From contig JADGDY010000007.1 of the NCBI GenBank assembly GCA_016744655.1, positions 1 to 64,000 on the forward strand: DNA of 64,000 nucleotides, written 5' to 3'. Numbering within the stretch: the stretch's first letter is position 1; each line of letters opens with the position of its first letter. Source of the DNA: Bacteroidales bacterium. GTDB taxonomy: Bacteria > Bacteroidota > Bacteroidia > Bacteroidales > UBA12170. The notes under the pieces are model-generated. The model saw nothing but the letters and a program-made list of their open reading frames with translations, ran no database searches and was not told the DNA's origin. This document shows positions 34,595-49,735 of the stretch, in pieces. Made by a program: the position numbers and the translations under genes.

Positions 34595-34736
34595 CTTTTG
34601 ATTTCCGGATTTGATAGTATGACGGAAAGGTAAATAAAATAGTTACAGGTTTTTTTAATTTAATGAATGAATGAGAGAATGATGTAATAATACAATGATT
34701 TAATAATTCAAGGAAAGAATGATTTGATTCTGTCAA

Positions 34737-34856
34737 TTTACAATCCTTTACTATCCATTACCATTTCTTACTATCCTCTATTATTCCTTACCATCCCATA
34801 CAACCATTTACTAGCCTTTACCACTATTTACTATCTCTTACCATCCTTTACTATCT
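34737..34856 (+). repeat. Tandem array of twelve degenerate 10-bp units, consensus TTTACTATCC
   Basis: Cutting the sequence every ten bases from 34737 gives TTTACAATCC, TTTACTATCC, ATTACCATTT, CTTACTATCC, TCTATTATTC, CTTACCATCC, CATACAACCA, TTTACTAGCC, TTTACCACTA, TTTACTATCT, CTTACCATCC, TTTACTATCT. The phase never slips. The period equals one helical turn. A leader AAAGAATGATTTGATTC at 34714-34730 precedes it. A second copy of leader plus decamers, inverted, is at 58165-58229. Confidence 0.85.
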
Positions 34857-34883
34857 TTATTGAATTCTTCGAATGGAAAAACC

Positions 34884-36556: not shown

Positions 36557-36721
36557 TCACACTTTTACCAAGATGATTTAGATGTAATATCACACTTTTT
36601 ACAACGTAAACAGGACCAAATATCACACTTTTACTAAGGTGTTTTACATGAAATATTACACTTTTAACAAGGTAAATCAAGCCAATTTTAACACTTTTGT
36701 CAAAAATCCAAAGTCAAAAAC
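36557..36721 (+). repeat. Five degenerate units at exact 33-bp spacing, core (T)CACACTTTTA
   Basis: The core begins at 36557, 36590, 36623, 36656 and 36689: TCACACTTTTACCAAG, TCACACTTTTTACAAC, TCACACTTTTACTAAG, TTACACTTTTAACAAG, TAACACTTTTGTCAAA. Units end in AAATA or similar and the middle varies. The spacing is invariant. The first two units read as open codons in one frame (SHFYQDDLDVI, SHFLQRKQDQI) but the third and later units have stops. It could be a remnant of a mobile-element end carrying multiple repeats, a decayed coding repeat, or a set of regulatory sites. Confidence 0.8.
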
Positions 36722-46801: not shown

Positions 46802-47302
46802 ATGAAAAATAAGCTGACTTTATTAATAGGTGGAAATGTGGGAGATAAGCTTTTTTATCTTCAAAAAACCGTCGATTTACTATCAGAAAAATTAGGAGAT
46901 GTCATTAAAACATCATCAATTTACGAAACTGCTGCTTGGGGTTTTGAATCAGATGACTTTTATAATATGGCTGTGGTTGTTGAGACTAATCATACTCCAA
47001 CTGACTGCTTATGCATCACTCAAAGTATTGAATTTGAAATAGGAAGAAAAGAAAAAAGTATAGATGGGAACTATAGTGCCCGTTGCATGGATATTGATTT
47101 GATGTTTTATAACGACATCACTTTTCATGATGATAGACTTAGTATTCCACATCTTAAAATTCAAGAAAGGAAATTTGTGTTGATTCCATTAAATGAAATA
47201 ATGAATCAATATATTCATCCAAAAGAAGAGAAAACAATTAGTGAGTTATTGAGTGAGTGTAGTGACCAATCAGAGGTAAAAAAGATAAATGAACACATAT
47301 AA
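46802..47302 (+). CDS. folK: 2-amino-4-hydroxy-6-hydroxymethyldihydropteridine diphosphokinase
   Basis: The 166-residue HPPK has LLIGGNVGDKLFYLQKTVDLL, SSIYETAAWGFESDDFYNMAVVVET, EIGRKEK, ARCMDIDLMFYND (the two Asp that bind magnesium) and PHLKIQERKFVLIPLNEI. It transfers pyrophosphate from ATP to the pterin in folate biosynthesis. ATG 46802 is chosen over GTG 46799. It overlaps the following kinase by 14 bases. Confidence 0.95.
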   Translation: MKNKLTLLIGGNVGDKLFYLQKTVDLLSEKLGDVIKTSSIYETAAWGFESDDFYNMAVVVETNHTPTDCLCITQSIEFEIGRKEKSIDGNYSARCMDIDLMFYNDITFHDDRLSIPHLKIQERKFVLIPLNEIMNQYIHPKEEKTISELLSECSDQSEVKKINEHI

Positions 47303-47924
47303 TTACATAGCCATTGAAGGTACTATAGGGGCAGGAAAAACTTCGTTGGCTACTATGATTTCCGAAGATTATAATGCCAAGCTCATCCTAGAGGGATTTG
47401 CCGACAATCCATTTCTACCCAAATTCTATAAAGAAGCTGACAAATATGCTTTTCCTTTGGAATTGTCTTTTTTAGCAGAACGATATCAACAACTTACCGA
47501 CCAACTTTCAAAACAAGATTTATTTAAAGCATTTACTGTTTCAGATTACTTTATCAATAAATCGCTCATTTTTGCTCAAAAAACTTTACAGGACGATGTT
47601 TTTGGCTTGTATTCACGATTGTTCCATATCATTAACTCCTCTATTCCGAAGCCTGACTTATTGGTGTACCTCTATGTTTCAGTAGACAGATTACAGGCTA
47701 ATATTAAAGAAAGAGGGCGTGATTATGAGCAGGATATTGAAAATGAATATCTTGAGAAAATCCAGTCTGGATATTTTGAATTTATTCGTCAACAACAAAA
47801 TCAGAGGATTCTCATATTAGATACCAACAATGTGGATTTTGTTAAGAATAAAGATGACTATAATCACATTATTGAATTAATAGACCAACCTTATGAAATA
47901 GGAATACATAGAGTAGTGGTTTAA
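47289..47924 (+). CDS. Deoxynucleoside kinase (dAK/dGK type)
   Basis: Walker A is GTIGAGKT at residues 11-18. FLPKFYKEADKYAFPLELSFLAERYQQL, SDYFINKSLIFAQKTL and LDVSVD-like VYLYVSVDRLQANIKERGRDYEQDI are the dNK substrate and lid phrases. It phosphorylates deoxyadenosine or deoxyguanosine for salvage. The 14-base overlap with folK shows translational coupling. Pairing folK with a dNK gene is a recurrent arrangement in Bacteroidota, though I cannot verify that here. Confidence 0.9.
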   Translation: MNTYNYIAIEGTIGAGKTSLATMISEDYNAKLILEGFADNPFLPKFYKEADKYAFPLELSFLAERYQQLTDQLSKQDLFKAFTVSDYFINKSLIFAQKTLQDDVFGLYSRLFHIINSSIPKPDLLVYLYVSVDRLQANIKERGRDYEQDIENEYLEKIQSGYFEFIRQQQNQRILILDTNNVDFVKNKDDYNHIIELIDQPYEIGIHRVVV

Positions 47925-49063
47925 TTGTTAATGATGCAATGATTATTGATTCAACGGATAAATGATTGAATAGTTTGATTTGTTTAACATTATAGCACTT
48001 TTCTAAATCTACTGATTAATGGTTTTCAAATTACTTTTTTAATCTGTGGAAATCCAAATTACCTGTGTCACTCGTGTTCATCTTTTGCGCTCTTAGCGTA
48101 TTTTTCCTTTGCTGGCCTATGCATGGAATATAAAAATGCATTATAAAAAAATCAGAGAATAATGGTCTTAGATTTGAGTTGCTAATATTATAAGATACTG
48201 AGTCAATGACTGAATGGATAAATGATTGAATAGTTTGATTTGTCTAACATTATAGTACTTTTCTACCCTACTCAAAATCCCACAATTAAACTACTTTATC
48301 AATCTGTGAAAATCCAAACAACCTGTGTCATTCGTGTTCATATTTTGCGCTCTTAGCGGGTTTTTCCTTTGCTGGTCTTTGCGTGGAATCTAAAAATGCA
48401 TCATGAAAAAATCAGAGAATAATGGTCTTAGATTTGAGTTACTAATATTATAAGGTACTGAGTCAATAGTTGAATGGTTAATGACTTAATGGATAAATGA
48501 TTGAATAGTTTGACTTGTCTAACATTATAGTACTTTTCTACCCTACTCAAAATCCCACAATTAAACTACTTTATCAATCTGTGAAAATCCAAACAAACTG
48601 TGTCATTCGTGTTCATTTTTTGCGCTCTTAGCGGGTTTTTCCTTTGCTGGTCTTTGCGTGGAATCTAAAAATACATTATAAAAAAATCAGAGAATAATGG
48701 TCTTAAATTTGAGTTACTAATATTATAAGGTACTGAGTCAATAGTCGAATGGTTAATGACCTGATGTACAAATGATTGAATAGTTTCATTTATCTAACAT
48801 TATAGCACTTTCCTACCCTACTCAAAACCCCACAATTAAACTACTCTATCAATCTGTGAAAATCTGTACAACCCGTGTCATTCGTGTTCCTTATTGTGCT
48901 CTTTTCGAGTTCTCTCTTTACCGGCATTTGCGGAGAATTAAAGTCCTTGTGCGGACAAACAATAGAAGAATAGGATTTATTGGACTTAAAAGTGGAAATT
49001 AATGGGACGATTTTAGAATGATTGAATAACTTAATTAAGTTAAAAACACAACATTTACTATAC
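47925..49063. other. 1139-bp gene-free region filled by a tandem repeat
   Basis: No ORF with coding character is present on either strand. Nearly all of it is the 260-275 bp array listed separately, with a short AATGATT-type entry (47930-47955) and a diverged exit (48960-49040). Confidence 0.8.
47956..48960 (+). repeat. Non-coding tandem array, about four units of 260-275 bp
   Basis: Units start at 47956, 48216, 48491 and 48766 (spacing 260, 275, 275). Each begins AATGATTGAATAGTTTGATT, then TAACATTATAG, then AATCTGTG(A/G)AAATCC, CTGTGTCATTCGTGTTCA, TGCGCTCTTAGCG, CTTTGCTGG, GAGAATAATGGTCTTA and ends TACTGAGTCAATA. Units 2 and 3 are almost identical; units 1 and 4 are more diverged, as expected if copies arise in the middle. 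The CTGTG/CATTCGTG and CTTTGC words recur in many Bacteroidota intergenic repeats as far as I recall. Confidence 0.9.
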
Positions 49064-49735
49064 TTACTTTTTTCCTAAAACCAACCGCTTTTCAGAACCC
49101 GGAAACTTCCCAAACCTTTGCAAAAGATAAATTGTGATAAAAGGAAGTCCAAAACCAATTGCGGCTCCAACCCAAATATCAACAAAGAAATGCTGAAGAA
49201 TATATACCCTTGAAAGCCCAGTTAAAACAGCAATACTAAGAATAAGAAAATTGATCACTGGTCCTTTCTTTAAGGCCCAAACCAAGAAAAACGCTACTAA
49301 AAAAACACTTTGGGTATGCCCTGAAGGAAAAGTATGCAAACCATGTAAATGAACACCTTCAACCTGATGGAGCAAATCGAAATCTTGGATATATGACATA
49401 GGACGATCTATATATGCGAAGATTCCTTTTTTCAATACCAACTGAACAATGATGGCTTCAATAATAACGAAGAAAGCAAAAAATCCAGCCATCACATAGC
49501 TGCGAAACAAGAGAAATATAACAACCGGAATAAATACTAATCCATCTCCAAGGTGAGTGATATATTTAAAAAACAGATCAAAAAAAGGATTATTCCATCC
49601 ATTTATCCAGAAAGTCGCTTGTTCTTTTGGGAGGAATAAAATTGGTGATGAAAGCAATAATATTGCAATCACTATAAATAAAAAACCTCTAGTTGAGGAG
49701 TCTGTTAAAAGATTATTAGGAGCAGATTTTACCAT
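49064..49735 (-). CDS. PAP2-family membrane phosphatase
   Basis: Six hydrophobic helices span 223 residues. The three phosphatase blocks are seen: KKGIFAYIDRP (K-x6-RP), FPSGHTQ (PSGH, catalytic histidine), and SRVYILQHFFVD (SR-x5-H-x3-D). Members dephosphorylate lipid phosphates such as undecaprenyl pyrophosphate or phosphatidylglycerophosphate. The -7 box at 49740-49747 ends four bases before the ATG, so the transcript is probably leaderless. Confidence 0.9.
   Translation of the reverse strand: MVKSAPNNLLTDSSTRGFLFIVIAILLLSSPILFLPKEQATFWINGWNNPFFDLFFKYITHLGDGLVFIPVVIFLLFRSYVMAGFFAFFVIIEAIIVQLVLKKGIFAYIDRPMSYIQDFDLLHQVEGVHLHGLHTFPSGHTQSVFLVAFFLVWALKKGPVINFLILSIAVLTGLSRVYILQHFFVDIWVGAAIGFGLPFITIYLLQRFGKFPGSEKRLVLGKK

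Follow-up and report, generated by a model that had tools for sequence, protein, structure and literature searches.

A four-unit intergenic tandem array in a Bacteroidales genome and its probable origin from a solo border repeat of small genes

What is the 1-kb tandem array that lies between two convergent genes of this genome, and from what could it have grown? In the window (the whole 64,000-nt stretch of DNA analysed), the array at 47956-48903 was by far the strongest detected with TRF (period 275, 3.5 copies, 84% matches, score 1224). It occupies the intergenic gap where a deoxynucleoside kinase gene and a PAP2 phosphatase gene converge (Table 1). A repeat search returned four copies, beginning at the unit starts in Table 1 and spaced 260, 275 and 275 bp apart, with identities of 82, 100, 96 and 61%, respectively. 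Unit alignment agreed with both searches, bearing out the preliminary description of a four-unit, ~1-kb tandem array. Units 2 and 3 matched at 265/275 positions (96%), versus 82% between units 1 and 2 and ~74% between unit 4 and units 2/3, so the near-identity of the inner units and the divergence of the outer ones were likewise as described. The difference between the 260- and 275-bp periods is accounted for by an additional 15-nt word in module A, GTCAATAGTTGAATG. Unit 4 is regarded as truncated because homology stops after module C. The conserved words ascribed to every unit were present, with small variations between units, and T exceeded A in all four units. The constant strand asymmetry therefore stands in direction, although the excess is only modest.

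Table 1 Positions of the array units, their modules and the flanking genes in the window.
Feature	Position	Strand	Remarks
Left flank gene: deoxynucleoside kinase (PF01712)	47289..47924	+	
Unit 1	47942..48201	+	260 bp, diverged; 48003-48030 replaced relative to units 2-4
Unit 2	48202..48476	+	275 bp
Unit 3	48477..48751	+	275 bp; 96% identical to unit 2
Unit 4	48752..48942	+	truncated after module C; no convincing alignment beyond ~48942
Module A, unit 2	48202..48233	+	15-nt GAATGATT-type words; also 47942-47973, 48462-48508, 48737-48783
Module B, unit 2	48301..48339	+	AATCTGTGAAAATC...CTGTGTCATTCGTGTTC; also 48041-48079, 48576-48614, 48851-48889
Module C, unit 2	48343..48389	+	TTTTGCGCTCTTAGCG..CTTTGCTGGTCTTTGCGTGGAAT; also 48083-48129, 48618-48664, 48892-48938
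Module D, unit 2	48411..48461	+	TCAGAGAATAATGGTCTTAGATTTGAG...; local filler repeated with the array
Right flank gene: PAP2 phosphatase (PF01569)	49064..49735	-	convergent with the kinase

The genome is a draft assembly (273 contigs, 87% complete), which makes the copy number of the array uncertain. Together with the 96% identity of units 2 and 3, this could be taken to mean that short reads from a population had been built into a false or inflated array. We consider such an artefact highly improbable, however, as differences between the units are numerous (18-38% for the outer ones), the array lies inside a 79-kb contig and shorter tandem duplications of the same repeat were present in an independent genome.

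Across the 1 kb, each frame contained 23-29 stops and no stop-free stretch exceeded 70 aa. The array is thus non-coding with no ORF inside it, as had been claimed, and a coding frame across units was rejected. The suggestion that it yields a structured RNA did not hold: on neither strand did the unit outperform shuffled sequence in folding (z = +1.37 and +0.49), nothing reached threshold in an Rfam search of the array, and a structured RNA family was rejected accordingly. Several known element classes were also discarded. There is no tRNA in the window, which speaks against a tRNA-associated locus; whole 260-275-bp units repeat, instead of the 21-48-nt repeats and unique spacers of a CRISPR array; and no inverted pair bounds a unit, as a MITE would require. 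A 23S rRNA intervening sequence (IVS) was rejected given the location between the kinase and PAP2 genes and the lack of any rRNA match, and no S23p ORF inside terminal inverted repeats was found at the array, which has no ORF.

A functional role, as binding sites for a DNA-binding protein, a terminator region between the convergent genes or a small-RNA precursor, would suit the convergent gap and the presence of conserved words in every unit. We nevertheless judge this very unlikely: no fold signal or Rfam match was obtained, the outer units have decayed, and in the sister species (G009), whose kinase is 95% identical, the orthologous gap has no array. That gap consists of ~190 nt with short word tracts, and its alignment to the array was marginal (score 17; shuffles, mean 11.7, maximum 18). 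These observations do not favour inheritance of the array from the genus ancestor. The array itself is probably without function.

The units are modular, their separable components being ordered as module A (15-nt words), a middle stretch, module B, module C (TTTTGCGCTCTTAGCGGGTTTTTCCTTTGCTGGTCTTTGCGTGGAAT) and module D. Modules B and C may also be given as AATCTGTG...CTGTGTCATTCGTGTTC and TTTTGCGCTCTTAGCG...CTTTGCGTGGAAT, respectively. The whole unit occurs in this genome only in the array; its modules recur separately. The repeat search reported no palindrome within units. Genome searches and flank comparison found no relatives of module D, merely short chance-like matches, and neither module D nor the middle stretch (48246-48296) was associated with gene flanks. 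Two further word tracts were observed in the window. Upstream of gltX (34664-34859), a GAATGATT-type tract like module A is followed by ~12 copies of the 10-nt word TTTACTATCC, with no small gene, representing another solo word tract; between gltX and metG (36557-36698) there are about four 33-nt repeats (TCACACTTTTACCAAGATGATTTAGATGTAATA).

Modules B and C belong to a dispersed intergenic repeat. Genome searches with R1, a sequence-only model of the C core trained on the array units and some dispersed matches, gave 24 copies (E ≤ 0.1) in this genome (4 of them in the array), 30 in G009, 18 in a further congener (G004) and 0-4 in other congeners, counts that include some of the training sequences. 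Among further C copies in this genome (G000) and G009, 42/43 were intergenic, in keeping with the intergenic repeat family that had been proposed. Module B lay directly upstream of C, in the same order, at five loci (L260, L265, L267, L274, L275). C copies at E ≤ 0.001 occurred in 9/60 same-order genomes. Across 89 sources, R1 matched only the array and six places in loci of GxxExxY genes, these six being weak and 0.7-1.4 kb from the gene; loci of four-helix-bundle and HPPK genes among these sources gave no match. An exact scan of species genomes for a generic C pattern identified 40 loci: a single Pyrinomonadaceae assembly accounted for 16, Bacteroidota for 12 and other taxa for the remaining 12. 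The copies in Bacteroidota and Acidobacteriota were intergenic, often with inverted words; matches in other phyla were mostly inside ORFs and are probably coincidental. The Pyrinomonadaceae draft JACMLC01 (Acidobacteriota; L022-L056) contained at least 16 intergenic TTTGCG-type elements, most of them followed by inverted words and hence hairpin-capable.

Further tandem duplications of the repeat were found at L265, L275, L252 and L005. Unequal recombination, to which the pattern of unit divergence had been attributed, is plausible given the tandem duplications of the same repeat elsewhere in the genus. At L265 (G009), two near-identical B+C copies lie 428 bp apart, a recent tandem duplication.

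Word tracts of this kind were presumed to lie near genes of the four-helix-bundle (TIGR02436/PF05635) and GxxExxY (TIGR04256/PF13366; PD-(D/E)XK-like) families, and this was then tested. The genome has five four-helix-bundle genes (six matches, one gene being interrupted) and three GxxExxY genes, most of which had word tracts on both sides. Comparing the upstream 150 nt with the reverse complement of the downstream 150 nt in same-order genomes (z > 3), we detected inverted borders at 19/32 four-helix-bundle genes (59%) and 13/26 GxxExxY genes (50%) versus 0/30 HPPK controls (Mann-Whitney U test, p = 9e-7 and 6e-5, respectively). Direct border matches were present in 46% of GxxExxY genes. Inverted framing was absent from all 44 ORFs of the window, and among 54 small ORFs in other loci it occurred in only two, both themselves GxxExxY genes. 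GxxExxY borders share CACAGAG/CGCAAAG/CACTGATG-like words across phyla, and each four-helix-bundle gene has its own heptamer-like word. On plasmids, inverted framing was seen in 6/9 four-helix-bundle genes (five of the six in Cyanobacteria) and 2/5 GxxExxY genes, many of these plasmid loci lying between functionally linked genes (cas6|cas4, cas10|cmr3, nrd genes, fabD|fabG).

Small GIY-YIG genes in same-order genomes were also flanked by repeats, in this case often long direct ones (12/18 at z > 3; for example L195, L198, L201, L202, L203, L206, L207); uvrC genes were left out as an internal control, their loci ending inside the gene. Several of these direct repeats resemble the 3' part of a tRNA gene, and the GIY-YIG genes at L205, L191, L189 and L170 adjoin other dispersed-looking words (GTCATTGCGAGGAGGAACGACGAAGCAAT, CCTGAGTTTATCGAAGGC, GACCCCGGC). 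The GIY-YIG-associated words possibly represent a third border vocabulary.

The array modules were matched to such gene borders. The reverse complement of module B aligned ungapped at 34/44 positions with the upstream border of a GxxExxY gene between cysD and cysN of this genome (L066; z = 10.4, composition-matched shuffles), and module B of unit 4 found its best match in a GxxExxY border from another family (L110; z = 7.7). Modules B+C resembled GxxExxY flanks more closely than they did HPPK flanks (p = 1e-4 and 5e-6); four-helix-bundle flanks showed no comparable excess. The best match of module A was to a four-helix-bundle gene border in this genome (L061; z = 5.8), a link that consists of one locus. 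C cores occurred on both sides of GxxExxY genes at two loci of G009 (L279, L281), and G022 and G062 each had a C copy 14-17 bp from a GxxExxY gene. GxxExxY genes were present in 8/9 genomes with C copies versus 21/51 without (p = 0.01). In a noisy 6-mer model scanning the window with GxxExxY-flank words, module B of unit 4 ranked second of all positions. A GxxExxY gene situated between tandem arrays of 88-120-bp B-like units, again in another family (L108), is a gene-bearing parallel to the array.

Could the array have arisen simply through slippage and recombination of a low-complexity spacer, its likeness to borders reflecting shared composition as opposed to descent? Such an origin would fit the shortness and quasi-periodicity of the words, the slippage-like 15-nt change from one unit to the next, and the lack of relatives of both module D and the middle stretch. 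However, composition does not readily account for a 44-nt ungapped match of module B to a GxxExxY border of the same genome at z of 10 against composition-matched shuffles. The C core also recurs in tens of intergenic copies, including both sides of GxxExxY genes, as well as in other Bacteroidota and Acidobacteriota, and the several B+C copies in G009 already suggest that word order and spacing are common by descent. We therefore regard ordinary repeat growth as unlikely.

It is instead likely that a solo border repeat without a gene was amplified in tandem at a single intergenic site to give the array. Small cassettes, in which inverted or direct tracts of 7-15-nt words enclose a single short gene, would enter intergenic and operon-junction sites; the gene would then be lost, leaving its border tract as a solo copy; and unequal recombination of this repetitive tract could duplicate it along with the adjoining sequence (module D and the middle stretch), reaching four copies in this case. 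By its sequence relation and with no gene between borders, the array would be classed as a solo form of the GxxExxY-gene border repeat as defined here. Since neither a GxxExxY nor a four-helix-bundle gene or remnant lies in or near it, we infer descent from a complete cassette from the words alone, some of whose similarity could be convergent as they are short and of low complexity. All three GxxExxY genes of the genome are on contigs other than that of the array. The cassettes presumably move, and the encoded proteins may act on the borders.

Turnover at such borders was apparent among congeners. Following cysD, this genome carries a GxxExxY gene (L066/L169), G009 a GIY-YIG gene (L170) and G004 a four-helix-bundle gene (L173), each with its own word borders. 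At the cysD|cysN junction of G009, whose cysD is 98% identical to that of this genome, the GxxExxY gene is absent and its downstream border persists (46/49 identical). In G004, the cysD 3' end recurs 670 bp further on as a 70-nt near-copy (60/70), behind which an apparent second four-helix-bundle gene was observed. Downstream of the kinase, at the site corresponding to that of the array, a third congener (G001, L161) has a 324-bp gene-less insertion with inverted TCTGCG/CGCTGAT words and a 50-60-bp direct duplication of its flank. These comparisons show gain, loss and solo remnants; the mechanism lies outside what they show.

What is interesting in these findings is less the array itself than the broader connection between word borders and families of small genes. 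This connection appears to be undescribed: searches of open-access papers, including those on dispersed repeats, short tandemly repeated repetitive (STRR) sequences, GIY-YIG and GxxExxY, retrieved no account of it, and none of the literal word strings was found. REP families came up in PMC3733652. The words of the array belong to a type of intergenic DNA that is common in Bacteroidota and Acidobacteriota and for which no name, origin or function is proposed in the literature searched. Their link to small genes offers these repeats, and the GxxExxY and four-helix-bundle proteins annotated by motif or fold only, a testable role as border and mobile cassette. Exchange of small genes at one operon junction among congeners also makes insertion, loss and target duplication directly comparable. 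Tentatively, and with rather more doubt than confidence, we suggest that a single widespread class of word-bordered mobile cassettes could carry the unrelated GxxExxY, four-helix-bundle and GIY-YIG genes as exchangeable cargo. Cassettes of this class would insert at 3' gene ends within operons, with duplication of 50-70 bp of target sequence, and the solo borders left behind would account for much of the dispersed TTTGCG/TCTGTG-type intergenic DNA in Bacteroidota, Acidobacteriota and other groups.

Among known systems, REP/REPIN sequences with their RAYT transposases include numerous intergenic copies that lack a gene but are related to the borders of the minority that carries one, and the present family shows the same arrangement. 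REP/REPIN involve Y1 transposases and 20-40-nt palindromes with a GTAG/CGTC tag, whereas here the genes are of the GxxExxY, four-helix-bundle and GIY-YIG families and the borders are word tracts. Cyanobacterial STRR sequences are heptamer-type tandem words in intergenic DNA, and the four-helix-bundle genes on cyanobacterial plasmids are framed by words of this type. The units of the array, unlike STRR, are 260-275-bp composites, and the literature searched holds no link between STRR and these genes. A Porphyromonas gingivalis MITE with an internal minisatellite (PMC4596501) resembles the array in being a non-autonomous intergenic repeat with a tandem array in Bacteroidota; the units of the array differ in having no bounding terminal inverted repeats. 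The IVS of Coxiella has a 28-bp stem, is excised by RNase III and is regarded as selfish and horizontally moved (PMC4990558). Existing knowledge of IVS elements that carry this four-helix-bundle family (PMC4990558), together with the open-access scope of the literature search, limits the novelty of our observations. Unlike the 23S rRNA IVS, the loci described here lie between protein genes and are bordered by tracts in which 7-15-nt words are repeated, and no gene is present in the array. The bordered four-helix-bundle loci nevertheless share the plan of a 23S rRNA IVS with an S23p/four-helix-bundle ORF (TIGR02436, PF05635), in that terminal inverted repeats enclose a small gene from this family.
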